DNA of 64,000 bases from NCBI RefSeq assembly GCF_041080675.1, contig NZ_CP163520.1, positions 7,903,501 through 7,967,500 on the forward strand, written 5' to 3'. Shown in pieces: positions 8,677-23,485 of the stretch (the first letter of the stretch is position 1; every line of letters starts with the position of its first letter). The notes beneath the pieces are model-generated. The model saw only the letters and a list, made by a program, of their open reading frames with translations. It searched no databases and was not told the origin of the DNA. The DNA comes from Streptomyces sp. cg36. Its GTDB lineage: Bacteria; Actinomycetota; Actinomycetes; Streptomycetales; Streptomycetaceae. Both the position numbers and the translations under genes were made by a program.

Positions 8677-9309
8677 ATGGGGGACTCCGATATAGGGAAC
8701 GGTGGAGGGAAACTCGGGATGCGAACGGCCCAGGCCGACGCCCCGGAGGAGGAGTCGGCCGATCCGGGTCGGCTGATCGACCGCTGTCGAGCGGGAGACG
8801 GCGGAGCGTGGGAGCAGTTGATCCATGTGTACAGCCCGGTCGTGTGGACAGTTGCCCGCTCACACGGTCTCAAACAGGCTGACTGCGAGGACGTGTACCA
8901 GCTCACCTGGCAGAGGCTGGTCGAGCACATAGACACGCTGAAGCAGCCCGGCAGGGTGGCGGCCTGGCTCGTCACCGTCGCCAAGCGCGAGTCCATCGGC
9001 CGGGCCAGGCAGAGCAGATGGACCATCAGCGTCGCCGAGCCGACGGACCTCCTCCGTCCGGCGGACCTGACCGCTCCCGCGCCGGAGGAGTGGGCCATCG
9101 CCCGCTCCGACAGCGAGCGGTTGCACGCCGCCATCAGAAGCCTGCCCGCCGAGCACCAGGCCCTCCTGGGCCTGCTCTTCGCCGAGCCACCCCTCAGCTA
9201 CGACTGCATCGCCGACGCGGTAGGTATGGCCCGGGGGTCGATCGGCCCCACGCGCCGTCGCATCCTGGCCAGGATGAGGGGCGAACTGGCAGGTGAGGGC
9301 CGGGACTGA
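8677..9309 (+). CDS. ECF-type RNA polymerase sigma factor
   Basis: A 210-residue sigma-70 family protein. After a short acidic N-terminus, region 2 spans about residues 33-105 (LIDRCRAGDGGAWEQLIHVYSP; DCEDVYQLTWQRLVEHID; AAWLVTVAKRESI) and region 4 about residues 150-205 (LPAEHQALLGLLF then the helix-turn-helix IADAVGMARGSIGPTRRRIL). There is no region 1 or 3, as expected for ECF factors. GGAGAGG precedes the ATG. No anti-sigma gene of standard form is adjacent; only a 58-residue convergent ORF follows. Confidence 0.9.
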   Translation: MGDSDIGNGGGKLGMRTAQADAPEEESADPGRLIDRCRAGDGGAWEQLIHVYSPVVWTVARSHGLKQADCEDVYQLTWQRLVEHIDTLKQPGRVAAWLVTVAKRESIGRARQSRWTISVAEPTDLLRPADLTAPAPEEWAIARSDSERLHAAIRSLPAEHQALLGLLFAEPPLSYDCIADAVGMARGSIGPTRRRILARMRGELAGEGRD

Positions 9310-9502: not shown

Positions 9503-9969
9503 CCTGGACCGCCGCCTCTGTGAGTCTCCGATGCCACCACGATGCCACTCGAATGAGCCGGTGTGATACGTCGAGAACGCCAACTCTACGTCGCGGCGCA
9601 GCGATTGAGAGGCCAGTGTGCGTATTGGGCCGGAACCGGCGTAGCGCAGCGAGGAATGGGCGAGCCGGCCCTGCCGCGCCGACGGCCACTCTTCGGGTCC
9701 CGCAGGAGGCGGCTGCCGAAAAAAACCGCACCGGATGTATCTGATGCGGCACTCGCTCCTCTGTGTGGGGTGAGCAAGGCGCGCCGTTGCGTTGCCAGTG
9801 GGGAGCGAGGGGATGGGGCCGTGAGCGGAAACAGACAGGGACGGTGTGCTCCAGCGTCCGGGACGCGTCAAGTGTGAGGCGTGTCCGGCTTATTGGGGCA
9901 GCTGGAACGATCCCCCGCGATGTGTCTTCCCGCCGGGGCCCGCGCGATGACATCTGAAGGGAACGGCAC
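9503..9969. other. intergenic region upstream of the P450-pentapeptide cluster
   Basis: 467 bases with no convincing gene on either strand. The last 30 bases contain the ribosome binding site (AAGGGA) of the P450. The promoter of the cluster should lie here, but no clear -35/-10 pair was seen. Confidence 0.4.
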
Positions 9970-11115
9970 GTGACGGACACGAACATCTTGAGCCTGCTGG
10001 AACCGGCCGCCCTGCTCGATCCTCATCCGATATACCGGCGATGGAAAGAGCAGTCCACGGTTCTGTGGGACTCGGACATCGAAGCATGGCTGGTGACCGG
10101 CTACGACGAAGCCTTCACCGCACTGCGGGACGTGGAGAACTTCTGCCAGGACTGGCGCCGGATCGGGGTGGACACCCCGCCGTCCCTGCTCAGCCTCCAG
10201 ACCCTCGACCCGCCGGAGCACACCCGCATCCGCCACTTGATGCTCGAGGGCTTCAAGGCGGCGGACCCGGAGGTTCTGGAGCGCACCGTACAGAACACCC
10301 TCGACGAGCTGCTGGCCGCCGTGGAGGGGGAGAAGACCTTCGACTTCGTCTCCAAGGTGGCCGAACCCCTCACCTTGCGGGCCGTCACCCAGTTGCTGGG
10401 TGTTCCCCAGCCCGACAAGGACTGGTTCATCCCCTTGTCGAACACCATCGTGGACGGAATGGACTCCAGCCTCCGGCCCGAGTGCTACCAGCCCGGCGTC
10501 GAGGCCCGCGCGATTCTCACCGAACTGGCCGGGGAGTGGCTCAAGTCCCCGCTGCCGGACGGATTCGCCGCCCACGTCGTCAAGAGGGCCCCGAGCGCGG
10601 GAGTCGACCACGACGTGCTCCTCAACTCCTTGCGCGTCGTGCTGCAAGCCGGCTTCCAGACGGCCAGCCGCTTCCTCGTCACGGGGTTGCTCACGCTGCT
10701 CCGCATACCGCCCGAGCGGCGGGTCCCCGTGGACACCGACCAGGCGGTCAACGAGCTCGTCAGGTTCGCCGGACCCGTGCACGTGGAGAGCCGGGCCTGC
10801 GTCCAGGACACCGTCCTCGGCGAGCAGAAGATCCGCAAGGGCGAGGTCGTCTCGATGTTCCTCGGTGCGGCGAACAGGGACCCCCGGATGTTCGAGGACC
10901 CCGAATCCCTGCGGTGGGACCGGACGCCCAACCGCCACCTCGGTTTCGGCCGCGGCCCGCACGCCTGCCTCGGAGCACAGGTCGCCGTGCAGGTCGCCCG
11001 CAGCACCTTCGGGACCATCGGCCGCCGATATCCGGACGCCCGGCTCGTCTCCGAGCCCGTACCGCGTCCCAACGTGACCGAGCACGGGATGTACAGCCTC
11101 GAGATTTCGTTCTGA
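9970..11115 (+). CDS. cytochrome P450, likely peptide cross-linking enzyme
   Basis: A 381-residue class I bacterial P450. The heme loop is FGRGPHACLG with the thiolate ligand Cys333; an ExxR-containing K helix and the I helix are present. In the I helix the usual acid before Thr is Gln (AGFQT, Ala227-Thr231). The GTG start has AAGGGA upstream. It is followed at 73 bases by three tiny ORFs that each encode MRHVH and then by an exporter. The known precedent is BytO of biarylitide biosynthesis, a P450 that links two aromatic side chains of a pentapeptide encoded by an 18-nt gene. By analogy this enzyme probably cross-links residues 3 and 5 of MRHVH. Confidence 0.85.
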   Translation: MTDTNILSLLEPAALLDPHPIYRRWKEQSTVLWDSDIEAWLVTGYDEAFTALRDVENFCQDWRRIGVDTPPSLLSLQTLDPPEHTRIRHLMLEGFKAADPEVLERTVQNTLDELLAAVEGEKTFDFVSKVAEPLTLRAVTQLLGVPQPDKDWFIPLSNTIVDGMDSSLRPECYQPGVEARAILTELAGEWLKSPLPDGFAAHVVKRAPSAGVDHDVLLNSLRVVLQAGFQTASRFLVTGLLTLLRIPPERRVPVDTDQAVNELVRFAGPVHVESRACVQDTVLGEQKIRKGEVVSMFLGAANRDPRMFEDPESLRWDRTPNRHLGFGRGPHACLGAQVAVQVARSTFGTIGRRYPDARLVSEPVPRPNVTEHGMYSLEISF

Positions 11116-11188
11116 GGAACGGCCCCGCCGCTGCGGGAGACCGCCCCGGAACGAGCCCCGCACAGGTGACAGGAGAGGGGGAAAGGCC

Positions 11189-11206
11189 ATGCGTCACGTC
11201 CACTGA
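11189..11206 (+). CDS. pentapeptide precursor MRHVH, copy 1
   Basis: An 18-nt ORF: ATG CGT CAC GTC CAC TGA, encoding MRHVH. It is preceded by a purine-rich ribosome binding site (AGGAGAGGGGGAAAGG) ending 2 bases before the ATG. It is the first of three such ORFs between the P450 and the exporter. Minimal RiPP precursors of exactly this length (MRYYH type) are known from biarylitide clusters. The Met-Arg start and C-terminal His match that pattern; position 3 is His instead of Tyr. Confidence 0.8.
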   Translation: MRHVH

Positions 11207-11258
11207 ACCAGCAGCACGCAGATCCTCAGCCCGTCCTGGTTGTTGGAGAGGAGGAGCC

Positions 11259-11276
11259 ATGCGCCACGTTCACTGA
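11259..11276 (+). CDS. pentapeptide precursor MRHVH, copy 2
   Basis: An 18-nt ORF: ATG CGC CAC GTT CAC TGA. It encodes the same MRHVH as copies 1 and 3, although two codons differ at the third base (CGC for CGT, GTT for GTC). GGAGAGGAGGAG lies immediately upstream. Identical peptide with silent changes is what selection on the peptide would leave. The bases after the stop (AATCCGCG, counting from the A of TGA) are shared with copy 3. Confidence 0.82.
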   Translation: MRHVH

Positions 11277-11353
11277 ATCCGCGTCGCACGCGAGCACACC
11301 GGAGGGATCAACCACCCTCGATGAGGGAACTCGATGGGGGAAGGAGAACCATC

Positions 11354-11371
11354 ATGCGTCACGTCCACTGA
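11354..11371 (+). CDS. pentapeptide precursor MRHVH, copy 3
   Basis: An 18-nt ORF identical in sequence to copy 1, with GGGGGAAGGAGA about 6 bases before the ATG. A second in-frame ATG at 11321 would give a 16-residue form (MRELDGGRRTIMRHVH), but copies 1 and 2 lack such an extension, so the pentapeptide is the common product. It lies 100 bases before the exporter gene. Confidence 0.8.
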   Translation: MRHVH

Positions 11372-11406
11372 ATCCGCGGGTAGCGGGAGTCTGAAGTGAG
11401 ATTCCC

Positions 11407-11441
11407 GGTGGACCCGGTGGGTCGCTCCCGCCGGGTCCACC
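11407..11441 (+). terminator. strong hairpin between precursor genes and exporter
   Basis: Arms GGTGGACCCGG (11407-11417) and CCGGGTCCACC (11431-11441) pair perfectly. Inside them a T-G wobble and GGG/CCC extend the stem to 15 bp around the loop TCGCT. There is no T-run. It may partly stop or process the transcript so that P450 and precursor mRNA exceed exporter mRNA. Confidence 0.6.
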
Positions 11442-11471
11442 AGGATCAACCGGGAAAGGTGAGGGCAGTCT

Positions 11472-12680
11472 GTGCGGGATTCCGCTGTCCGTACGGCTCC
11501 GGCGCCAGGGGTCAGGTCGGTGCTCCGCGTGCCGGGCATGCGTGCCGTGTTCGTCGCGCACGCCGTGTCCATGGTGGGCACGTTGGCCGCCGAGGTGGCC
11601 CTGTCGATCCTCATCTTCCAGCGGACCGGCTCCGCCCTGTGGTCGGCGCTGGTCCTCGTCTGCTCGTTCCTTCCCTACGCCGTGGGCGGCACCGTACTGT
11701 CGTCACTCGCCGACCGGTTCCGGCCGCGGCGCGTCCTGGTCACCTGCGACCTGCTCAGCGCCGCCTGCATCGCGGCCATGCTGATCCCGGGAATGCCGAC
11801 GCTCGGCCTGCTGGGACTCCTGCTCGTCACCGGGTTCGTGGCGCCGCTCTTCCAGGGCGCCCGGGCGGCGAGCCTGTCCCACCTGCTGGACGCGGATCTC
11901 TTCCCGATCGGCCGTTCGCTGCTGCGGACCATCAGCCAGAGCGCCGTCGTGACCGGATTCGCCGTGGGCAGTGTGCTGGTGGCCGCTGTCGGACCGCTGT
12001 GGCTCCTGGCGGTGGACGCGTGCAGTTTCGTGGTCTCCGCCGCACTCATCGGATACCGCACACCGGCCGCCCCCGCCGGCGATCCCGGTGGTGAGCGCAC
12101 GCTGCGGGCCGTGATGAAGGGCTCGGCGGAAGGGCTGCAGCACATCCGGGCCAACCGGCCGCTGCGCCGACTGATCCTGCTGACCTGGGCCGTGCCCGGC
12201 TTCTCGTCCGTGGGCGACGGTCTGGCCGTCGCCTACACCGCCGAAGCGGGCTCGGCGGCCACCGCGGCGGGCTGGCTCTTCACCGGGTACGCCGTGGGCA
12301 CGGTCATCGGCGAACTCGTGGTGGCGCGGCTGTCCCCCGACGCCCGCCGCCGTCTCATCACGGCTCTGGCCGTCGGCTCCCAGATCCCGCTGACCGGCTT
12401 CCTCCTCGGCCCGTCCGTTCCCGTGGCGGCAGCGCTGCTGGCGCTCTCCGGCGCGGGCTTCGCGTGCAACCAGGGCATCGACCCGCTGATCCTGGCGGCG
12501 ACGGACCCCGGCTACCGGGGCCGCCTGTTCACGGTGCAGACGAGCGGGCTCATGACGGTGCAAGGCGTGGGGGTCGCTCTGTCCGGCGCCCTGGGGACAC
12601 AGCTGAACCCCGGCGTCGTCATCGGCGCGACCGGGCTTGTGGGGGCGCCGGCCGTCTGGCTCCTGGCCCGTCGGCGGTGA
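11472..12680 (+). CDS. MFS transporter, probable exporter of the pentapeptide product
   Basis: A 402-residue major facilitator superfamily protein with about 11-12 hydrophobic segments. The loop after the second helix carries the motif-A-like sequence SLADRFRPRRVL. A central cytoplasmic loop lies near residues 196-225. The GTG start has AAAGGTGAGG upstream. Because it follows the P450 and the three precursor ORFs on the same strand, export of and self-protection from their product is the natural guess. It resembles drug-efflux MFS proteins in general; substrate is not visible in the sequence. Confidence 0.85.
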   Translation: MRDSAVRTAPAPGVRSVLRVPGMRAVFVAHAVSMVGTLAAEVALSILIFQRTGSALWSALVLVCSFLPYAVGGTVLSSLADRFRPRRVLVTCDLLSAACIAAMLIPGMPTLGLLGLLLVTGFVAPLFQGARAASLSHLLDADLFPIGRSLLRTISQSAVVTGFAVGSVLVAAVGPLWLLAVDACSFVVSAALIGYRTPAAPAGDPGGERTLRAVMKGSAEGLQHIRANRPLRRLILLTWAVPGFSSVGDGLAVAYTAEAGSAATAAGWLFTGYAVGTVIGELVVARLSPDARRRLITALAVGSQIPLTGFLLGPSVPVAAALLALSGAGFACNQGIDPLILAATDPGYRGRLFTVQTSGLMTVQGVGVALSGALGTQLNPGVVIGATGLVGAPAVWLLARRR

Positions 12681-14173: not shown

Positions 14174-14992
14174 CTACGCCCGGCGGGCGCCGTCGCCCTC
14201 GGGGGCGAAGCGGACGGGTGCTTGGAAGCGGGCCTTGCGGGCGGCGCGGCGGAAGACCGTGAGGACGGCCGGTCCGGCCAGGCAGATGCAGACGAAGTTG
14301 GTGACCGCGCGGCCGGTGTCCCAGCCCAGGGAGGTGGCGAGGTCGAAGGCCAGGTACCGGTGGAACTGCTCGGTGAAGGGCAGGCCGGGCAGGTAGGCGA
14401 TGGAGCTGTTGGGGTCCAGCGAGAAGGGCCAGAAGGACAGGTTGAGGAGGAAGCCGAAGAGATAGCCGGAGAGCGAGCCGTAGCCGGCCAGCAGGGCGAC
14501 CTCCCGCCTGCCGGTGGCCCTGGGCAGGAAGCCCGCGAGCATGCCGACGAAGGCGCAGCCGAACATCTGGTAGGGCATCCACGGTCCGACGCCGCCGGTG
14601 ATGAGGGCGGAGGCGAACAGGGAGGTGCAGCCGAGGGTGAATCCGAAGCCCGGCCCGAAGACCCGGCCGGACAGGACGAGGATGAAGAAGACCGTCTCGA
14701 TGCCTGCGGTCCCGGCGCCCAGGGGGCGGATGGCGGCGTTGACGGCGGACAGGACGCCCAGCATGGCCAGGGCCTTGGAGTTGATGCCGCCCTCGGAGAT
14801 CTCCGAGATGACCACCGACAGCACGATCACCAGGAGTACGCCGAAGATCAGCGGAGGCGCGTAGTTCGAGCCGAACTTTCCCGGGGCCACGAGGAACGGC
14901 CAGAAGAACGCGACGATCCCGAGGAAGGCGGCCATCGCGATGACGACGGCCGCGCGCGGGCGGATCCGGATGGCGGGGCCGGCGGCGCTCAT
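14174..14992 (-). CDS. ECF transporter substrate-binding (S) component, probably for cobalamin
   Basis: A 272-residue membrane protein with six or more hydrophobic segments and a basic C-terminus. It resembles the large CbrT-like S components that bind cobalamin in ECF transporters. The ATG overlaps the stop of the ATPase gene by 4 bases (ATGA), so translation is coupled. Substrate is inferred from the cobalamin riboswitch at the head of the operon and the intrinsic-factor-like genes, not from binding residues. Confidence 0.75.
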   Translation of the reverse strand: MSAAGPAIRIRPRAAVVIAMAAFLGIVAFFWPFLVAPGKFGSNYAPPLIFGVLLVIVLSVVISEISEGGINSKALAMLGVLSAVNAAIRPLGAGTAGIETVFFILVLSGRVFGPGFGFTLGCTSLFASALITGGVGPWMPYQMFGCAFVGMLAGFLPRATGRREVALLAGYGSLSGYLFGFLLNLSFWPFSLDPNSSIAYLPGLPFTEQFHRYLAFDLATSLGWDTGRAVTNFVCICLAGPAVLTVFRRAARKARFQAPVRFAPEGDGARRA

Positions 14993-16644
14993 GAGGCGGT
15001 GTCCGTCGCGGTGCCGCGGCCCAGGGCGGCGACTGCCTGGGCGACGGTGAGGTAGGGGAGCGGCGCGAGGATCTTCGCGGTCTGCGGGGCGAAGACCGGG
15101 GAGGCGACGATGACTTCCGTGGTGGGTCCGTCGGCCACGATGTCGCCCTCGGCCATGACGACGACCCGGTCGGCGGCGCGGGCCACGAACTCCACGTCGT
15201 GGGTGGAGATGACCACGGCCCGGCCCTCGGCGGCGAGGTCGTCGACGATGCGGACGAGCTGTTCCTTGGCCCGGTAGTCCAGGCCGCGGGTGGGCTCGTC
15301 CAGGAGCAGGATGTCCGGGGCCGCGGCCAGTTGGATGGCGAGGACGAGGGCGAGCTTCTGGCCCTCCGACAGGTCGCGCGGGTGCGTGGTGTCCGCGATG
15401 CCGGGGGCCAGCCGGTCCAGGAGCGCGCGGGCCGTGGTGCCGGTCGCGGTTACGGCCGACTCGGCGTCCGCCTGGTCGAGTTCCTGTTTCACCGTCTCCA
15501 GGTACAGCAGGTCGGTGGGGGTCTGCGGGACCAGGCCCACCAGCTTGCGCGCCTGGGTGGCGGGGAGCTTGCGGGGGTCGGCGGTGCCGGTGGGGCCCGT
15601 GGGGATGCGCACGGAGCCCGCCGTACGGGGCCCCGAGCCCTGGAGCGCCCACAGCAGGGAGGACTTGCCGGAGCCGTTGCGGCCCATGAGGGCGGTCACC
15701 TCGCCGCCGTGCAGGGCCAGGTCGACGGCGCGGACGGCCGGTACGCCGTGGTAGCTCACGGTGACGCCGTGCGCGGTGAGGAGGGTGGGCCGGTCGGCGG
15801 CCAGTGGCGGTCGGGCGGGTGCGGGCTCGGTGTCGGCGAGTTCCCCGCGTACCGGAGCTGCGGCGCGGCGGGCGTCGCGGATGGACAGGGGCAGCGGGTC
15901 CCAGCCGGCCGCGCGGCCGAGCTCCACGATGGGCGGCGCGATGGACGTCGTGCGGAACACCGTCGCGGGCGGCCCCGAGACGACGCGGCCGTCGCCGGGC
16001 AGCTGGATGACGCGGTCGGCGTACTGCACGACGCGTTCCAGGCGGTGTTCGGCCAGCAGGACGGTGACGCCGAGGTCGTGGACGAGGCGGGTGACCGCGG
16101 CCAGGACCTCCTCGGCGGCGGTCGGGTCGAGCGCGGAGGTGGGTTCGTCCAGGACGAGGACGCGGGGGTGCGCGGTGAGCACCGAGCCGATGGCGACGCG
16201 CTGCTGCTGGCCCCCGGAGAGCTCGTGCAGGGCGCGGTGGCGCAGGTCGGCCAAGCCGAGGAGGTCGAGGGTCTCCTCCACCCGCTTGCGCATGGTGGCC
16301 GGGGGAACCGCCAACTGCTCCATGGTGTAGGCGAGTTCCTCCTCGACCGTGTCGGTGACGAAGGAGTCGAGCGGGTCCTGGCCCACCACGCCGACCACGT
16401 CGGCCAGTTCGCGCGGCGGGTGCTCGGCGGTGTCGCGGCCGTCGACGGTCACCCGCCCGTAGAGGGTGCCTCCGGTGAAGTGCGGTACGAGGCCGTTGAC
16501 GGCGCCGAGGAGCGTGGACTTGCCGACGCCGGTGTGGCCGACGACGAGGCACAGTTCGCCCTCCTCGACGGTCAGGTCCACATCGCGCAGGACCGGTCCG
16601 TCCGCGTCCTCGTAGTGGACGCTGACCTGGTCGAAGGTGATCAC
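14989..16644 (-). CDS. ECF transporter ATPase with two fused ABC domains
   Basis: A 551-residue double ATPase. Domain 1 has Walker A GHTGVGKST (residues 36-44), signature LSGGQQQRVAIG and Walker B VLVLDEPTSALD. Domain 2 has Walker A GRNGSGKSS with Lys327, signature LSEGQKLALVLA and Walker B ILLLDEPTRGLD. It corresponds to EcfA1-EcfA2 in one chain and would drive the T and S subunits encoded on either side. The GTG start overlaps the upstream T-component stop by 4 bases and the stop overlaps the S-component start by 4 bases. Confidence 0.9.
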   Translation of the reverse strand: MITFDQVSVHYEDADGPVLRDVDLTVEEGELCLVVGHTGVGKSTLLGAVNGLVPHFTGGTLYGRVTVDGRDTAEHPPRELADVVGVVGQDPLDSFVTDTVEEELAYTMEQLAVPPATMRKRVEETLDLLGLADLRHRALHELSGGQQQRVAIGSVLTAHPRVLVLDEPTSALDPTAAEEVLAAVTRLVHDLGVTVLLAEHRLERVVQYADRVIQLPGDGRVVSGPPATVFRTTSIAPPIVELGRAAGWDPLPLSIRDARRAAAPVRGELADTEPAPARPPLAADRPTLLTAHGVTVSYHGVPAVRAVDLALHGGEVTALMGRNGSGKSSLLWALQGSGPRTAGSVRIPTGPTGTADPRKLPATQARKLVGLVPQTPTDLLYLETVKQELDQADAESAVTATGTTARALLDRLAPGIADTTHPRDLSEGQKLALVLAIQLAAAPDILLLDEPTRGLDYRAKEQLVRIVDDLAAEGRAVVISTHDVEFVARAADRVVVMAEGDIVADGPTTEVIVASPVFAPQTAKILAPLPYLTVAQAVAALGRGTATDTAS

Positions 16645-17825
16645 TTGGGTTCCTCGGTGCGCGGTGCGGCGACGGTGGGCCGGGTGGCGGGGGCGGGCGG
16701 CGGGGCCAGGAATCCGGCGGCGCCCGCCAGGAGGATGGCCGCGGCGGGCACCAGCGGCAGGGTGGGCCAGCTGAGCGGGTAGATGGACGGGTTGAGCTCG
16801 GCGGCGTCGAAGCCGACGTTGGTGAAGAGCAGGACGGCGGAGAGCATCCCGCACCCGGCCACCGCCCACTCGGCGAACTGCCAGGGGTCGGGCCGGTAGC
16901 TGGTGCGGGTGATGCGGCGCCCGCCCAGGCGCAGGCCCGCGAAGCACAGCAGGGCGCCCGCGCCCATGGCGGGCAGGCCCAGCAGCCGGGGTGCGGTGGC
17001 GTCGAGCAGGCCGTAGGACCCGGCGCACAGGCCGCACATGCCCAGCAGCATCAGGGCACCGGTCAGGCGGCGCGAGCCCCGGGTGGCGGTCCCGGCGCGA
17101 CCGTAGCCGCGGGAGTCCATGGCGGCGGCCAGCCGCAGCGAGCGCTCCAGGGCGTCTTCGAGTACGGGGACGACGATGCCGCGCAGCGCCCGCAGCCCTT
17201 TGGAACGGCTGGCCCGCAGCCGCTTGGCCCGGTGCACGCGCTGCACGCTCTGGACGAGCTGCGGGGCGACGCTGATGGAGACGGTGACGGCGACGCCGAG
17301 TTCGTACAGGGCGCCCGGCAGGACGCGCAGGGCCCGTTTGGGGTTGGCGAGGGTGTTGGCGGCGCCGACGCAGCACAGCATGCAGGCCAGGCGCAGCCCG
17401 TCGGTGGCGGCGGAGAGCAGCGCCTCCAGGGAGACGGGGCCGCCGAGTTGGATGCCCGCGTACCAGTCGGGGGTGGGGATGTGGGGCAGGGAGAAGAGGA
17501 AGTGGTCGCGGGGGGTGATGCCGGTCGCGAAGACGGCGCGGAAGGTGACGCGGATCGCGACGACGCTCAGCGCGAGGTAGAGGTAGTACTTGAAGCCGCG
17601 TGCCCAGGGGGCCTCGGTGCGGCGCATGGTGATCACGTAGCCGAGGACCGCGAGGACGAGGAAGAGCAGCAGCGGGTTGTTGGTGCGGCTGACGGCGGTG
17701 GCCAGGGCCAGGGCCCAGACCCACCAGGCGACCGGGTGCAGGGTGCGGGGCAGACGGCGTCCGCCCGTGTCCGCGGCGGGCGGGGACACGGGCGGCGAGG
17801 CCGCGGCCGTGGTGGTGCGGGACAC
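16641..17825 (-). CDS. ECF transporter transmembrane (T) component, CbiQ/EcfT family
   Basis: A 394-residue membrane protein with several hydrophobic helices. The region around residues 195-250 holds the EcfT coupling helices, with short Ala-Arg-Gly-type motifs (ERSLRLAAAMDSRGYGR is the clear signature) that contact the ATPases. The GTG start follows the previous stop by 4 bases. Together with the two neighbours it completes a dedicated ECF transporter. Confidence 0.85.
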   Translation of the reverse strand: MSRTTTAAASPPVSPPAADTGGRRLPRTLHPVAWWVWALALATAVSRTNNPLLLFLVLAVLGYVITMRRTEAPWARGFKYYLYLALSVVAIRVTFRAVFATGITPRDHFLFSLPHIPTPDWYAGIQLGGPVSLEALLSAATDGLRLACMLCCVGAANTLANPKRALRVLPGALYELGVAVTVSISVAPQLVQSVQRVHRAKRLRASRSKGLRALRGIVVPVLEDALERSLRLAAAMDSRGYGRAGTATRGSRRLTGALMLLGMCGLCAGSYGLLDATAPRLLGLPAMGAGALLCFAGLRLGGRRITRTSYRPDPWQFAEWAVAGCGMLSAVLLFTNVGFDAAELNPSIYPLSWPTLPLVPAAAILLAGAAGFLAPPPAPATRPTVAAPRTEEPK

Positions 17826-17829
17826 CAGG

Positions 17830-18765
17830 CTACTCCGTACGGCGGCGGCGCTTGGCCGCGTACGCGGCGGCGGCGCCGATCAGCAGGACCACGGCCCCGG
17901 TGGCGACGGCGGGCAGGTAGGAGCCGGTGTCGTGGGCGGCGTCGGCGGCGGGTTCGGCGTTGAGGACCTTGGTGCCCGAGGCGGAGTTGCCCGCCGCGGT
18001 GTTCGGCGTCGGCGCTCCCGAGGTGGCCGGTGAGGCGCTGGGCGAGGCGCTCGCGCTGGGGCTCGGCGAGGCGGTGGGGCTCGGCGGCGTGGAGGCGGTC
18101 GGGGCCGGGGCGGCCGGGGGCGGGTTCTCGGGCTTGGGGCCGGTGTTGACGCCCGGCGGCAGCGGAGCGGCCGTGCGGGTGTCCTTGGGGACCGTTTGGC
18201 CCCCGCCAGTGGGCCGGGCGTTCTTGGCGCGCAGCTGGTCGGGGGTGACGACGGGGCGGCCCTTGGTGCCCTGGACGTCGGTGCCGCCGAAGATCCACAG
18301 GTCCACGCTGCCGGGCTTCGGCTTGTAGAGCATCGCGCCGAGCTGGCTGTACTGCCAGCTGTTCTGGCCCGGGTCGGCGTGCCAGTAGGACCAGTAGGCG
18401 GAGGCCGGCGGGGTCAGGACGCAGTCGTCCTGCTGGGAGGTGGGGTACTGCTTGCCGCCCTGGTAGCCGCTGTAGCCGATGCGGCAGATGAAGGCGGGCC
18501 CGTCGTGGCCGGTGCCGGTGGTGGCCCAGCCGCCCTGGTTGAGGAGTTCGTAGCCGGTGGTGGGGGTGGTTCCGCAGGAGCGGTAGATGGGTCCGCCCCA
18601 GTGGCTGAAGTCCACGGCGAGGACGGCGCCGGAGCTGGTGGTGCACTGGCCCATCGGCTGCGGGGCGGCGCCCGCGGGGGCCGTGGCGGCGGCGAAGGCC
18701 GCCACCGTCAGCCCGAGGGCCGCCGCTGTGCGGGCGAGGGCGCGCCCGACCCGGTCGCCGCTCAT
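17830..18765 (-). CDS. SCO2322-type surface protein of the cobalamin locus
   Basis: A 311-residue exported protein: signal peptide (about residues 1-33), one domain of about 130 residues with four conserved cysteines (CTTSSGAVLAVDF, RSCGTTPTTGYELL, FICRIGY, DDCVLTP), a Pro/Ser/Thr-rich spacer, then a transmembrane helix and a basic tail (AAKRRRRTE). The same Cys domain occurs at the N-terminus of the next upstream gene, with about half of its residues alike. I recall this as the SCO2322 family. The stop lies just before the EcfT start, and the ATG overlaps the upstream stop (ATGA). Confidence 0.75.
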   Translation of the reverse strand: MSGDRVGRALARTAAALGLTVAAFAAATAPAGAAPQPMGQCTTSSGAVLAVDFSHWGGPIYRSCGTTPTTGYELLNQGGWATTGTGHDGPAFICRIGYSGYQGGKQYPTSQQDDCVLTPPASAYWSYWHADPGQNSWQYSQLGAMLYKPKPGSVDLWIFGGTDVQGTKGRPVVTPDQLRAKNARPTGGGQTVPKDTRTAAPLPPGVNTGPKPENPPPAAPAPTASTPPSPTASPSPSASASPSASPATSGAPTPNTAAGNSASGTKVLNAEPAADAAHDTGSYLPAVATGAVVLLIGAAAAYAAKRRRRTE

Positions 18766-21518
18766 GCGTCGCTGCCCGGGTTCGGGCGGCGGCGCCTGGC
18801 GGCGCGGGTGACGCTCCAGCCGCCGAGGGTGAGCAGCACGGCCGCGCAGGCGAGGGCGCCGGCCTGGGTGCCGGTGGAGGCCAGCGGGCCGGTCCCGGAC
18901 GAGGTGCCGCCGGTGCTGCCCGTGCCGCCCGCGGCGTCGCCCGGGGTCACGATGGCGGGTGCGCCGGTGCTGCCGGTGGAGGTGCCCGGGGTGGCGCCGG
19001 TGGTGGGCAGCGGCTGGGGGCTGGTGCCCTTCAGGTCGCGGGTCAGCAGGCCGAAGGAGATGCCGGTGGCGCCGCCGACGGCCTGCGTGGAGGCGCGGAC
19101 GTCGGATCCGGGCTGGCCCTCCTTGGCGATCCGGAAGCCGCCGTCGCCGTTCTGCTGGCTCGCCAGGAACGTGCGCGCCTTGGCGATCTGCGTCCGGTAC
19201 TTGACCGCGTCCAGGGAGAGCCCCTGGACGGCGAGGGCGGCGGAGTTCACGGAGTTGCCGGAGGCGCCGGGGAAGCCGCCGTCCGGCTTCTGCTGGGTGG
19301 CCAGCCAGGCGAGGGCCTTGTCGACCGCCTGCCGGGAGTCGGCGTCGGGCAGCAGGGCCACCGCCATGGCGGCCATCGCGGTGGAGTCGACCTCGATGTC
19401 GCTGGCCTTGCCGATGAGGCTGGGCCAGGCGCCCGAGGACTGCTGGACGCTCTTGAGGTAGGCGGCCGGGCCGCTCGCGGCGGTCGCGTCGCCCGCGCGG
19501 AGCTGGGCGATGACGCCGAGGGACTGGTCGAAGACGGACTTGGCGTTCTGGTAGGCGCCCTTGCCCGCGCAGTACGGGGTGGACGTGGTGTCCTTGGCCC
19601 CGCACCGGCCCGCGGCCAGGGCGGAGATGAGGTTCTTCCCGGCGAAGTCGCGCGGGTTGCGTCCGACGGCCTCGGCGAGCAGCGCGGTCTTGCCGATGGA
19701 ACCGCCGCCGGCGTACTTGGTGCCGATCAGCATGTAGTCGTTGACGGTGCGGCCCTTGCCGTCCTTGCCGCCCTTGTCGAGGAAGTCGACGATGTTGCGC
19801 AGGACGGTGTTGTCGCCGCCGGTCGCGGCGAGGGCGAACGCGCCGTCGACGGTCAGGCCGTAGTCCGCGAAGCGGGTGCCGGGGCCGCTCTCGTAGTAGC
19901 GGCCCTGGATCAGGCGCGAGGTGTCGGTGAGGTAGGCGACGCCCTTCTTGAGGTCGGGTCCGTCGCCGGGCCGGGGAGTGGTCGGCGGGTCGCTCGCCTT
20001 CGTGGTCAGTGCGACCAGGTCGCTCTTGACGGCGGCGACGGTGGCGGGCGAGGTGGCGAACAGGCGCGACGCGGTGTCGTCCTCCTCGAAGCCGAAGCCG
20101 CCCTCGGGGAACTGGTGCCGGGAGAGCCAGGAGGTACCGGCGTCCGCGAACGCCGTGTCGCCCAGGGCGCGCAGGGCCTGCGCGGCCCAGGCGGTGGAGG
20201 CGGGACTGCCGGTGGTCGAGGTGGCGGAGGAGGGCCAGGCGCCGGTGGCGAGCTGGGTCTTCTTGAGGTAGGCGCGGGCCTTCTGCACGGCGGTGTTGTG
20301 GCCGCCCGCGTGCTGGAGGGCGAGGGTGATCAGGCCGGTGGAGTTCGCGTCGCTGTCGCACCAGCCGCCGGAGCGGATGAGGACGGAGGTGAAGCCGCCG
20401 TTCTCGCACTGCAGGCCGGTGAGGCGGTTCACGGCGATGGCGGGGAGGGTGGCGCCGCCGTTGGACAGGGCGATGACGGCCATGGCCTGGGCGTCGGACT
20501 GCCCGGTCGTGCGGAAGTCGCCCTTGGTGAGGCAGCCGTCGACGGTGTCGCCGTCGCCGATGTCACGCGGGCAGAGGTACTTGAGGAGATCGCCGAGCAG
20601 GTCGTGGCCGCCGAAGGCGCGGGGGTCCTTGCCGGTGGCTTCGGCGACCAGGGCGAGGCGGGAGGCGGCGGTGGCGTCGGGAACCGCGTTCTTGCCGGCC
20701 GGGTAGGCGTAGGCGTCGGTCTGCTCGGGCTCGGCGAGGAAGTCCGCGGCCTTCTTGGCGGCCGGGCTCTTCGGGTCGGCGCCCGCCAGGGCGAACACGG
20801 CCTCGGTGGTGAGGAAGTAGTTGGTGTCCGAGCCGTCCACGACCCGCTTGCCGTCCTTGAGCTGGCTGGTGATCCAGCGGGTGGCGGCCGGGACGTCGAC
20901 CTTTCCGGCGGGCACCTTGGGCGGCTCGGTGGGGACGGTCGGGTCCGGGGTGATGGCGTCGGCGGAGCGGACGTCGTCGGGGGAGAACGCGGGCCTGCCG
21001 GAGGTGCCGCCGACGTCCGTGCCGCCGAACACCCAGGCGTCCACGTCACCCGGCTTGGGCGTGCGGGCCATCGCGCCGAGCGGGCTGTAGGTCCAGCTCT
21101 TCTGCCCCAGGGAGGCGATCCAGTACGACCAGTAGGCGGTGGCCTGCGGGGTGAGGACGCAGTCCTCCTTGTCCGGGGTGGGGTACTGCGTACCGGAACC
21201 CTTGCCGATGCGGCAGACGAACGCGTCCCCGTCGTGGACCGTGCCGGTGGTGGTGAACCCGCCGGTGCGCAGCAGCTCGTACCCGGTGGTCGGGGTCGTG
21301 TCGCAGCCGCGCTCGACCTTGCCGCCGAAGGGGCCGAAATCCACGGCGACGATGGCGCCGGTGGTGGCCGTGCACTTCTCGAGGGGGTCGGCGGAGGCGG
21401 GGGAGGTCCCGCTCACGAAGGTCACGCCCGCGGCGACGGTCAGCACCGCCGCCGATACGAGCGACAGGAGCCGTCTGCGCCCCGTGCGCTGCTCTGGTTG
21501 CTGTGCGGTCCCCACCAC
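18762..21518 (-). CDS. wall-anchored intrinsic-factor-like protein with two alpha/alpha-barrel domains
   Basis: A 918-residue exported protein. Order: signal peptide (about 1-43), a SCO2322-type Cys domain (about 44-180), two successive prenyltransferase/squalene-cyclase-type helical repeat domains (about 210-530 and 545-800; repeats such as AWLATQQKPDGGFPG and FLASQQNGDGGFR), a Gly/Ser/Thr-rich stalk, and a sorting signal LASTG (residues 879-883) followed by a membrane helix and an Arg-rich tail. LAXTG is the class E sortase motif of Streptomyces. In animal transcobalamin and intrinsic factor the same helical barrel fold binds cobalamin. A cobalamin riboswitch precedes it, so corrinoid capture at the wall is likely. 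GTG start with GAGGGG upstream. Confidence 0.75.
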   Translation of the reverse strand: MVGTAQQPEQRTGRRRLLSLVSAAVLTVAAGVTFVSGTSPASADPLEKCTATTGAIVAVDFGPFGGKVERGCDTTPTTGYELLRTGGFTTTGTVHDGDAFVCRIGKGSGTQYPTPDKEDCVLTPQATAYWSYWIASLGQKSWTYSPLGAMARTPKPGDVDAWVFGGTDVGGTSGRPAFSPDDVRSADAITPDPTVPTEPPKVPAGKVDVPAATRWITSQLKDGKRVVDGSDTNYFLTTEAVFALAGADPKSPAAKKAADFLAEPEQTDAYAYPAGKNAVPDATAASRLALVAEATGKDPRAFGGHDLLGDLLKYLCPRDIGDGDTVDGCLTKGDFRTTGQSDAQAMAVIALSNGGATLPAIAVNRLTGLQCENGGFTSVLIRSGGWCDSDANSTGLITLALQHAGGHNTAVQKARAYLKKTQLATGAWPSSATSTTGSPASTAWAAQALRALGDTAFADAGTSWLSRHQFPEGGFGFEEDDTASRLFATSPATVAAVKSDLVALTTKASDPPTTPRPGDGPDLKKGVAYLTDTSRLIQGRYYESGPGTRFADYGLTVDGAFALAATGGDNTVLRNIVDFLDKGGKDGKGRTVNDYMLIGTKYAGGGSIGKTALLAEAVGRNPRDFAGKNLISALAAGRCGAKDTTSTPYCAGKGAYQNAKSVFDQSLGVIAQLRAGDATAASGPAAYLKSVQQSSGAWPSLIGKASDIEVDSTAMAAMAVALLPDADSRQAVDKALAWLATQQKPDGGFPGASGNSVNSAALAVQGLSLDAVKYRTQIAKARTFLASQQNGDGGFRIAKEGQPGSDVRASTQAVGGATGISFGLLTRDLKGTSPQPLPTTGATPGTSTGSTGAPAIVTPGDAAGGTGSTGGTSSGTGPLASTGTQAGALACAAVLLTLGGWSVTRAARRRRPNPGSDA

Positions 21519-21609
21519 GGCCCCTCGTGTCGGCCGGGCGGACCAGTGCGTGGCAAAGGGGCTTCCGCGGCCCGAGGGGGCCCGGGGAAACCGGTGGCAC
21601 CACGCCGTA

Positions 21610-21765
21610 GTCCGCGACGGCGTTTCTCGCTGCAAAACCTGGCTCCAGGCATTCCGACTCGCCCGGACGGTGCCGGGCCCACGGTTGCGGGTCAGTGCCG
21701 GATTTCGACCGGCTTCCCCTGGAGCTGAGTGCTTATCAGTCGGAGTGGACCACGTGGATAAAGAC
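21610..21765 (-). promoter_or_regulatory. cobalamin riboswitch upstream of the ECF operon
   Basis: Read on the minus strand, positions 21717-21681 carry the conserved core GGAAGCCGGTCGAAATCC followed by GGCACTGACCCGCAACCGT, which matches the B12-riboswitch pattern (GGGAA, GGTGNGAA, GCTGNCCCGCAACGGT). Downstream comes a GAGTCGGAATGCC ... GCCAGG block, also typical. Outer limits are estimates. It lies 90 bases before the GTG of the wall-anchored protein. Confidence 0.85.
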
Positions 21766-21844
21766 AGCGTCAAGGTGGGCTGCGTCTCACCTCGCGGGCC
21801 GAACTCCCCACGCGGCAGAATCCGTTCGGCGTGGCTGGCGGACC

Positions 21845-21990
21845 CCTGATCGCTCGGGTAGCGTCCTGGCCTGCCACATGGGGGAACCTGGTGCGAATCC
21901 GGGGCTGACGCGCAGCGGTGTGGAACGGCAGGGGGCCGTTTCCGAGCCCGAATGCCCATATGGCCAGGCAATGCACAAGCCGTACCACGC
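21845..21990 (+). promoter_or_regulatory. cobalamin riboswitch upstream of the secreted intrinsic-factor-like gene
   Basis: On the plus strand 21889-21920 read GGGGGAACCTGGTGCGAATC then CGGGGCTGACGCGCAGCGGT, again the cobalamin riboswitch core. A GAGCCCGAATGCC ... GGCCAGGC block follows at 21944-21969, homologous to the block in the divergent riboswitch. Outer limits are estimates. It ends about 80 bases before the ATG. Confidence 0.83.
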
Positions 21991-22072
21991 GTTCGGACGG
22001 CCGCTGCCGGGCTCCGGGCGCCGTCCGCGTGAGCCCCGGTCAGGTCGGCGTCCCTCATTCCAGGAGCAGGCC

Positions 22073-23485
22073 ATGTCCCGACCCCGCACCTCCCGCCGTC
22101 TGGCGCTCGCACTGCCCGCGGCGCTCGGCGCCCTCGCCCTCACCGCGCTGCCCGCCTTCGCCACGTCCTCGCCCGCACAGATCGCCACCTCCAAGACCAA
22201 CGGTGTGAACTACCTCAAGTCCCTTCAGGCGGCGGACGGTTCGTACGCCGGCTCCGGACTGTCCAACGAGTGGGCGTTCAGCGCCTTCGCGGCCACCGGC
22301 ACGGCCGTCGTCGACGTCTACCCGGGGGGCGACACGTCGAAGAACGCCCGGACCGTCTACCGCAACCTGCTGTCCACGGCGGGCTGGCCGCAGGCATCGC
22401 CGGTCGTGACCGACTACGAGCGCGGCACGCTCAACGCCTACGCCGCCGGCATCGACCCGGCCCGCGTCTCGGACTCGCGCAATCTCGTCGCGAACGTCTA
22501 CTCCTACTGGCAGACGGCCGAGGCGGGTTACTTCGGTCCGTCGGGCAACTTCAACGGCACGGTCTTCGCGGCCCTTTCGCTGGGCGGCGCCAAGACCCAG
22601 AGCGGCGGCAAGCGCGTGCCGCAGGCGCTCACCGACTCCATGGTCACCCGCATCCGCGCCAACCAGCACGTGGACGGCGGCTGGACCTTCCAGAAGGGCG
22701 AGGGCAACCCCACCGTCCTGAACTCCGCGAGCGACGTCGACATGACCGGCGCCGCCATGGCCGCCCTGTGCGTCTCGGGCGTGCCCAGCACCGACACGGG
22801 CGTCGTGAAGGCGAAGAACTTCCTCAAGAGCACCCTCGTCTCGGGGACCGGCGCGTTCAACTCCCTGTACGGGGTCAACACCAGCTCCAACGGCTGGGGC
22901 GTGGCCGGTCTGAACGCGTGCGGCTTCAACCCGCAGACGGGTGACTTCCTGACGTCCAGCGGCAAGACGCCGGTCGACTTCCTGATAGCCAACCAGTACA
23001 ACCCGGCGGGCGGCTTCAAGTACCAGCCCTCCGACACCACCCCCTCCGCGTACTCCTCGATCGACGCGCTGCGCGCCGTCGCGGGCGGTGGCTTCACCAC
23101 GGCTCCGCCGGTGCCGGTGACCCCCGGCGCCCCGCAGTGGGTCGCCCAGCCCACCTTCACTGCCGGTACGGCCACCAAGCTGGCGCTGACCGTCGACGAC
23201 GGTGCGGGCAGCCTCAAGGTGTGCTCGGTGGCGTTCACCCCGACCGGGACGACCACCACCCTCGGCGATGTGCTGGCCGCCGCCACCAGCGGCGCCAGCC
23301 CCTCGGGCTGTGTCACGGGGGTGACCCCGTCGTCGGGCACCGGAACCATCACCGCGGTCAACGGCAAGGCCAACAGCGGCTCGAACACCTGGAAGGTCGG
23401 CGTCGACGGCTCGGCCTTCGCCGGGGCCCTGCGGGAGAAGGTCATCAACGTGGGCGACACCATCGCCCTGCGCTGGGGCGTCTGA
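22073..23485 (+). CDS. secreted intrinsic-factor/transcobalamin-like protein
   Basis: A 470-residue exported protein: signal peptide (about residues 1-31), an alpha/alpha-barrel domain of prenyltransferase/cyclase type (about 35-345; repeats such as GVNYLKSLQAADGSYAG and IRANQHVDGGWTF), and a C-terminal beta domain of about 110 residues ending TWKVGVDGS...VINVGDTIALRWGV, which fits DUF4430. Helical barrel plus DUF4430 is the architecture of intrinsic factor and transcobalamin. No anchor is present, so it should be released. CAGGAG precedes the ATG. The upstream cobalamin riboswitch supports a corrinoid-binding role. Confidence 0.75.
   Translation: MSRPRTSRRLALALPAALGALALTALPAFATSSPAQIATSKTNGVNYLKSLQAADGSYAGSGLSNEWAFSAFAATGTAVVDVYPGGDTSKNARTVYRNLLSTAGWPQASPVVTDYERGTLNAYAAGIDPARVSDSRNLVANVYSYWQTAEAGYFGPSGNFNGTVFAALSLGGAKTQSGGKRVPQALTDSMVTRIRANQHVDGGWTFQKGEGNPTVLNSASDVDMTGAAMAALCVSGVPSTDTGVVKAKNFLKSTLVSGTGAFNSLYGVNTSSNGWGVAGLNACGFNPQTGDFLTSSGKTPVDFLIANQYNPAGGFKYQPSDTTPSAYSSIDALRAVAGGGFTTAPPVPVTPGAPQWVAQPTFTAGTATKLALTVDDGAGSLKVCSVAFTPTGTTTTLGDVLAAATSGASPSGCVTGVTPSSGTGTITAVNGKANSGSNTWKVGVDGSAFAGALREKVINVGDTIALRWGV

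Follow-up and report, generated by a model that had tools for sequence, protein, structure and literature searches.

MRHVH mini-genes flanked by P450 and exporter genes in Streptomyces sp. cg36: a candidate tyrosine-free subfamily of the biarylitides

A 64,000-nucleotide (nt) stretch of Streptomyces sp. cg36 (contig NZ_CP163520.1), called the window in the following, contains a small cluster in which a cytochrome P450 gene, three 18-nt open reading frames (ORFs) for the pentapeptide MRHVH and the gene of an exporter of the major facilitator superfamily (MFS) follow each other on the + strand. Comparison with related loci makes it very probable that peptides of the type Met-Arg-His-X-His (MRHXH) are the substrate of the P450. 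With a probability of roughly 70%, the cluster belongs to a tyrosine-free subfamily of the biarylitides, in which the P450 would cross-link His-3 to His-5 and the resulting cyclic His-X-His peptide would be exported. All sequence features that were tested agree with membership of the biarylitide family. What appears to set it apart from the described systems, within the accessible main texts of the literature, is the presence of histidine at both cross-link positions.

Three MRHVH mini-genes and their counterparts in related loci

The P450 gene occupies 9970..11115 on the + strand (GTG start, 381 amino acids), and the MRHVH mini-genes lie behind it on the same strand at 11189..11206, 11259..11276 and 11354..11371; copies 1 and 3 are identical in their letters, and copy 2 shows two synonymous differences. 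The 20 nt in front of copy 1 (11169..11188, + strand) and copy 3 (11334..11353, + strand) contain a Shine-Dalgarno-like purine run, and those in front of copy 2 (11239..11258, + strand) contain a full GGAGG. The best matches to GGAGG comprise 4, 5 and 4 of 5 letters at a spacing of 7, 4 and 6 nt, respectively, in agreement with an earlier annotation made from the letters of this DNA (the sequence-only reading), which had assigned a ribosome-binding site to each ORF. By sequence, the copies have the form of a biarylitide precursor gene, that is, an 18-nt pentapeptide gene with its own ribosome-binding site. The same reading had placed the three ORFs between the P450 gene and the exporter gene, and these sites are exact: the pattern ATGCGNCAYGTNCAYTRR has exactly three matches in the window, all on the + strand (0 in 100 shuffles), and the looser pattern ATGCGNCAYNNNCAYTGA has three matches in the whole genome (9,022,416 bases), all at the MRHVH sites, with 0 in the backwards control. 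The three copies agree with each other at 93% over the ORF, compared with 47% in the 20-nt stretches to either side of it.

Absence of such peptides beside orthologous P450 genes had been named beforehand as grounds for giving up the sequence-only reading. In all 8 other loci examined at the DNA level whose P450 is at least 71% identical to that of the window, two of them from one species (S. albogriseolus), MRH[V/A/I]H is encoded at the same place, by either a single ORF or two. A scan of genome contigs revealed three relatives of the window P450, namely L009 from Streptomyces sp. SW4 (75% identical, one MRHAH), L010 from S. albogriseolus (74% identical, one MRHIH) and L011, whose P450 is 25% identical and in which the locus scan found no MRHXH-type ORF. 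Of 392 genomes belonging to the window's genus, 35 (the window's own among them) contain a P450 with an E value of at most 1e-60; apart from the window, five reach 71-84% identity, and all five loci carry the motif, with two MRHAH ORFs in L020, one MRHVH each in L021 and L022 and one MRHAH each in L023 and L024. A further cluster consisting of P450 (73%), MRHIH and MFS exporter, together with a sigma factor gene, is located on the linear plasmid pSALBX2 (337 kb) of Streptomyces albogriseolus LBX-2 (L051). Wider draws of genomes, which overlap each other, yielded no orthologue of at least 71% identity besides the window in 394 genomes of the class, one that was already known in 394 genomes of the family and none in 296 relatives.

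Conservation is confined to the ORF. Over 11 copies (the plasmid copy was left out as a near-duplicate), the ORFs are on average 91% identical to each other, or 97% when codon 4 is set aside; codon 4 by itself averages 61% and the adjacent blocks 29-46%. As judged from these alignments, the 18 nt are a conserved block of an otherwise diverged spacer. His-3 and His-5 are kept in 11/11 copies, which places aromatic residues at positions 3 and 5 as in the biarylitides; the classical Tyr-3 is absent. A pattern search in the 392 genomes of the genus, which requires ATG and misses GTG starts, gave 23 matches in 19 genomes and 11 in the backwards control. Nine of the 23 matches, in 6 genomes, adjoin a P450 of the window clade, and all nine are preceded by a Shine-Dalgarno-like sequence; the other 14, of which 3 have a Shine-Dalgarno-like string, lack a match to the window P450 within the surrounding DNA that was examined (up to 1.5 kb per side, tblastn at E 1e-5). 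Because ordinary gene prediction misses ORFs as short as these mini-genes, the P450 clade provides a handle to find more such clusters.

A P450 of the biarylitide/RufO family with a V/Q/Q triad

A PDB sequence search with the window P450 returned RufO chains on top, and P450Blt was also found within the first ten. The predicted model has a mean predicted local distance difference test score of 96.3, and its 13 top matches in Foldseek are RufO and P450Blt structures (E 1.3e-34 to 2.6e-30; next match 1.3e-24), some of which contain a bound pentapeptide. By sequence, tree and predicted fold, the window P450 is assigned to the biarylitide/RufO family. The window also encodes a second cytochrome P450 (51480-53069), which shares 32% identity with the enzyme discussed here.

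The residues A231, H234 and E238 control the specificity of P450Blt (PMC10929621; statements on this paper, PMC12186263 and PMC13417212 refer to their accessible text), and His234 contacts His-5 of the peptide (PMC12186263). P450Blt A231V-H234L gains His-X-Tyr cross-linking, the peptide MRHLY being joined through imidazole C2, and positions 231/234/238 are V, L and N in the P450 that was proposed to act on MRHEY (PMC10929621). The equivalent I-helix triad, A/H/E in P450Blt, is V/Q/Q in the window clade (V223, Q226 and Q230 in the window P450). V/Q/Q was found in 27 of 164 aligned P450s, a set made up of 44 from the window and the loci and of 120 of 2018 protein hits among the matches listed; all 27 share an identity of 56% or more with the window P450. 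Eighteen of them are protein hits (P0001-P0016, P0018 and P0019), one of which stems from Amycolatopsis azurea (P0018, 61% identity), and P0004, P0008 and P0013 may coincide with examined loci from the genomes G672, G692 and G647. All nine V/Q/Q loci examined at the DNA level, the window included, have a His-X-His peptide.

Other positions resemble those of the peptide-modifying relatives. In RufO, residues 84, 188 and 231 grip the peptide backbone and carboxylate, and residue 169 is Asp in the nitrating RufO and Val in the cross-linking P450Blt (PMC12186263). The three gripping residues correspond to Q77, R180 and R222 of the window P450 when the alignment is read with numbers shifted by two, a shift calibrated on the I-helix residues that the paper identifies; they are kept in 27/27 members of the V/Q/Q clade in the alignment. 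Residue 169 corresponds to Val161, which is Val in 27/27 members and not the Asp of RufO. A further residue, E371 (window 11080-11082, in an NVTEHG stretch near the C-terminus), is Glu in 27/27 clade members and in 0/137 other aligned P450s, one of which has a gap at this position. L371E is the sole change that passed a filter for class-specific positions besides H226Q and E230Q, and the latter two are circular by construction since the groups were defined by the triad.

The relation between triad and peptide was followed in 42 P450 loci (L009, L010, L012-L045 and L052-L057). The motif is present in 39 of them, 31 with Tyr-3 and 8 with His-X-His; no mini-gene motif was found in the locus scan of L019, L037 and L045. 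Seven of the eight His-X-His loci have V/Q/Q, and the eighth is L057 (G797:C894). This locus encodes MRHRH with a GTG start and a good ribosome-binding site at 2686-2703 on the reverse strand, 39 nt past the stop of a P450 that is 45% identical to the window P450 and carries the triad V/H/E; no match to the window MFS exporter is present in its flank. The assembly has 7% contamination, and the proteins nearest to L057 carry the names Actinosynnema and Saccharothrix although the genome is classified in the family of the window; the contig may thus not belong to this assembly, and its host is unsure. No other copy of the MRHRH-P450 pair was found in 4 genomes of this genus. A strict one-to-one tie of V/Q/Q and His-X-His is rejected by L057, and V/Q/Q is not the cause of His-X-His because this locus has MRHRH beside a V/H/E P450.

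In a 51-row tree, 17 V/Q/Q proteins form one clade with a support of 100/100 and one change of state, and its sister group consists of three proteins with A or T/H/E; the V/Q/Q clade also has a support of 100/100 in a 54-row tree, both trees having been calculated with the triad columns included. The 54-row tree unites L057 and five V/H/E proteins, the three A or T/H/E proteins, whose precursor motif is not known, and the V/Q/Q clade in one group (97/91), and it rejects a clade of L057 and V/Q/Q without the three A or T/H/E proteins. Parsimony over the rows with known motif requires one change between Tyr-3 and His-X-His. It may be that His-X-His arose once at the base of the whole 97/91 group and that V/Q/Q came later; V/Q/Q may tune the reaction. 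As far as the sequences tell, His-X-His peptides extend beyond the V/Q/Q clade and predate it.

Described systems, the proposed product and a competing oxidation

The sequence-only reading had named the biarylitides as the closest described case, and this is borne out by the conservation of MRHXH, the family membership of the P450 and the kept pentapeptide-binding residues. The biarylitide systems (bytA/bytO; P450Blt with MRYLH and myxarylin with MNYLH) likewise form a minimal cluster, with an 18-nt pentapeptide gene, aromatic residues at positions 3 and 5 and one dedicated P450 of the same family beside the precursor gene. The window clade differs from them by His-3 instead of Tyr-3, a precursor gene behind the P450 gene, V/Q/Q instead of A/H/E, a fixed MFS partner and up to three copies of the mini-gene. 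Three copies, downstream position and His-3 had been put forward as distinguishing features; all three are present, but they are less special than thought, as each has a precedent. Among 277 clusters, several-copy precursors are described as well as one precursor located 1.4 kb downstream, and a position downstream of the P450 gene is described for MRYWY (PMC13417212). The Lysinibacillus MQWNY clusters contain up to six copies of the pentapeptide gene; however, they belong to another phylum and have Trp-3 and Tyr-5 (PMC13417212). In the MKYWH group of biarylitides (PMC13417212), which is the neighbouring clade in both trees, the locus scans show the mini-gene downstream as well, at the 3' end of the P450 coding region, which most MKYWH ORFs overlap. 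In contrast to the window clade, the MKYWH group has Tyr-3, Lys-2 and an A, T or V/H/E triad, and no orthologous MFS gene in the examined 1.5 kb flanks. The MRHEY system and the engineered P450Blt A231V-H234L share His-3 and Val at 231 with the window clade; MRHEY differs by Tyr-5, and its P450 by Leu and Asn at 234 and 238 (PMC10929621). RufO of rufomycin biosynthesis, which acts on MRYLH, is the closest solved structure, but it nitrates Tyr-3 and has Asp169 in place of the Val of the window clade (PMC12186263).

The literature examined gives Tyr or Trp as the third residue, MRHEY being the addition to these, and the scanned loci add 8 His-X-His peptides versus 31 with Tyr-3. MRHVH, HVH, MRH, HAH, HIH and HXH are absent from the main text of PMC13417212, where an entry in the supplement is possible; this supplement contains models of His-3 peptides. 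No MRH was found in the accessible text of PMC12951456 or PMC8708641, and a literature search for MRHVH returned unrelated titles.

The biosynthesis would probably proceed as follows. The three mini-genes would be translated to MRHVH, several copies raising the dose of the precursor, and the P450 would join His-3 and His-5 by an imidazole-imidazole cross-link, either C-C from C2 of His-3 or C-N. No leader-trimming enzyme was identified beside the cluster genes, and the Met-Arg leader would therefore be removed by host peptidases before the His-Val-His product is exported by the MFS protein. A more specific version can be offered tentatively, and with less confidence than the cross-link as such: the P450 with its rebuilt V/Q/Q site might make a bi-imidazole His-X-His cyclic tripeptide that is exported as a metal ligand and switched on by the cluster's own sigma factor of the extracytoplasmic function (ECF) type. 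If formed, a cyclic His-X-His peptide would be a rigid two-imidazole ligand and a plausible metal binder. A natural His-X-His class raises the question of P450-catalysed coupling between two imidazoles, and it offers native enzymes and substrates to address it.

Several points weigh against the proposed cross-link. Imidazole is harder to oxidise than phenol, and the P450 reaction may therefore differ. A literature search by title found no described His-X-His or His-His cross-link in ribosomally synthesized and post-translationally modified peptides, an MRHXH entry in supplements, in the 2021 Planomonospora paper or in the tables of the 2023 macrocyclase survey being possible. According to a modelling statement, His-3 does not approach the heme (PMC13417212). 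The V/Q/Q clade has Gln at both positions that handle His-5 in P450Blt (H234 and E238), and Val at 231 also occurs with Tyr-3, as in MRYAY with V/L/S and MKYWH in L055 with V/H/E. Multiple copies are not the rule, as 7/9 loci (window included) carry one mini-gene. V/Q/Q is not required for His-X-His, as L057 illustrates, and this looser link between triad and motif slightly lowers the confidence in the cross-link and in its more specific version. Finally, a stem-loop and an exporter gene right behind the mini-genes would fit a leader-peptide regulator, too.

The replacement of H234 and E238 favours an oxidation in which the histidines are not joined: the P450 might hydroxylate, nitrate or otherwise oxidise one His of the pentapeptide, and the altered residue or peptide would be the product. 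RufO, the closest solved relative, sets an example, since it nitrates Tyr-3 of MRYLH rather than cross-linking the peptide and in this way supplies nitrotyrosine. Nitration would also be favoured by a nitric oxide synthase gene (PF02898), which is present in the genome of the window and in G647. However, these are only 2 of the 8 cluster genomes (completeness is known for 6/8), in the window's own genome the gene is located 6.6 Mb away, and no nitric oxide synthase gene was found within the cluster; a RufO-like nitration is therefore unlikely as the general reaction. The Val at the equivalent of residue 169, as in P450Blt, argues against nitration as well, and a reaction on a single residue would not need both His-3 and His-5, which are invariant. 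Overall, an oxidation without joining is considered unlikely, and the cross-link is preferred.

Exporter, stem-loop and candidate promoter

The MFS exporter gene (11472..12680, + strand) has a GTG start, encodes 402 amino acids and is conserved beside the clade P450s: an orthologue (67-75%) follows in 8/8 other loci, and in 9/9 with the window, the starts outside the window being approximate as they were taken from tblastn ends. Between the last mini-gene and the exporter gene lies a strong stem-loop (11407..11441, + strand), which 0/100 shuffles reach in the window. It is present before the exporter gene in 9/9 loci and is reached by 0-2/100 shuffles per locus, with real and shuffled sequences treated alike. 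In the proposed biosynthesis, the stem-loop would keep the level of precursor mRNA above that of exporter mRNA.

The presence of both elements in 9/9 loci could also mean that the mini-genes serve as leader peptides in an attenuator governed by translation, in which ribosomes on MRHVH and the stem-loop set the expression of the exporter, and that the P450 acts on another substrate. This is very improbable. The studied members of the P450 family act on such pentapeptides, and other members have the mini-gene upstream of the P450 gene, away from an exporter gene; MRHRH in L057 and MKYWH genes lie behind P450 genes without an orthologous MFS gene in the examined flank; and two or three copies are hard to square with one attenuator. 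The spacer contains no known cis-regulatory RNA above gathering score, an undescribed RNA being possible, and a sub-threshold microRNA match in the spacer was taken as chance. That the ORFs are functionless chance matches of 18 nt can be dismissed, even with 14 of 23 matches in 392 genomes lying away from clade P450s and 11 in the backwards control, since all three lie within 183 nt of a 9.0-Mb genome that contains no others, shuffles do not produce them, the same peptide type recurs in 8/8 orthologous loci and conservation is limited to the 18 nt.

Upstream of the P450 gene, the window contains a predicted ECF-type promoter of the operon (GTATC-N17-CTCTGT, 9737..9764, + strand) and the gene of an ECF-type sigma factor (8677..9309, + strand), which is the predicted regulator. 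The pattern GTATC-N16-18-CTCTGT occurs once in the window versus 0.02 expected and lies upstream of the P450 gene in 6/9 loci (window, L009, L010, L047, L049 and L051), its longer form being TGTATC-N16-18-CCTCTGT. These six loci, or the genomes that contain them, also encode an orthologue of the ECF sigma factor (62-69%), in L009 at a distance of 4.9 kb upstream; in G672, G692 and G647, which lack the promoter motif, the best match reaches 34-36%. Such full agreement over nine loci has a chance of 1 in 84 if the loci are independent, and it is only suggestive because they are related and two come from one species. The ECF sigma factor and the TGTATC/CCTCTGT site are a candidate sigma-promoter pair, and the sigma factor would turn the operon on from this site.

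Elsewhere in the window, the minus-strand genes at 14174-22112 include one for a CbiQ cobalt-transport protein (16641-17825) and one for a protein with squalene-cyclase-type toroid repeats (18762-22112, minus strand). An Rfam cobalamin riboswitch just above threshold is located at 21881-21957 on the + strand, opposite to the genes of the CbiQ region. The genes at 14174-22112 are perhaps a cobalt or B12 uptake unit.

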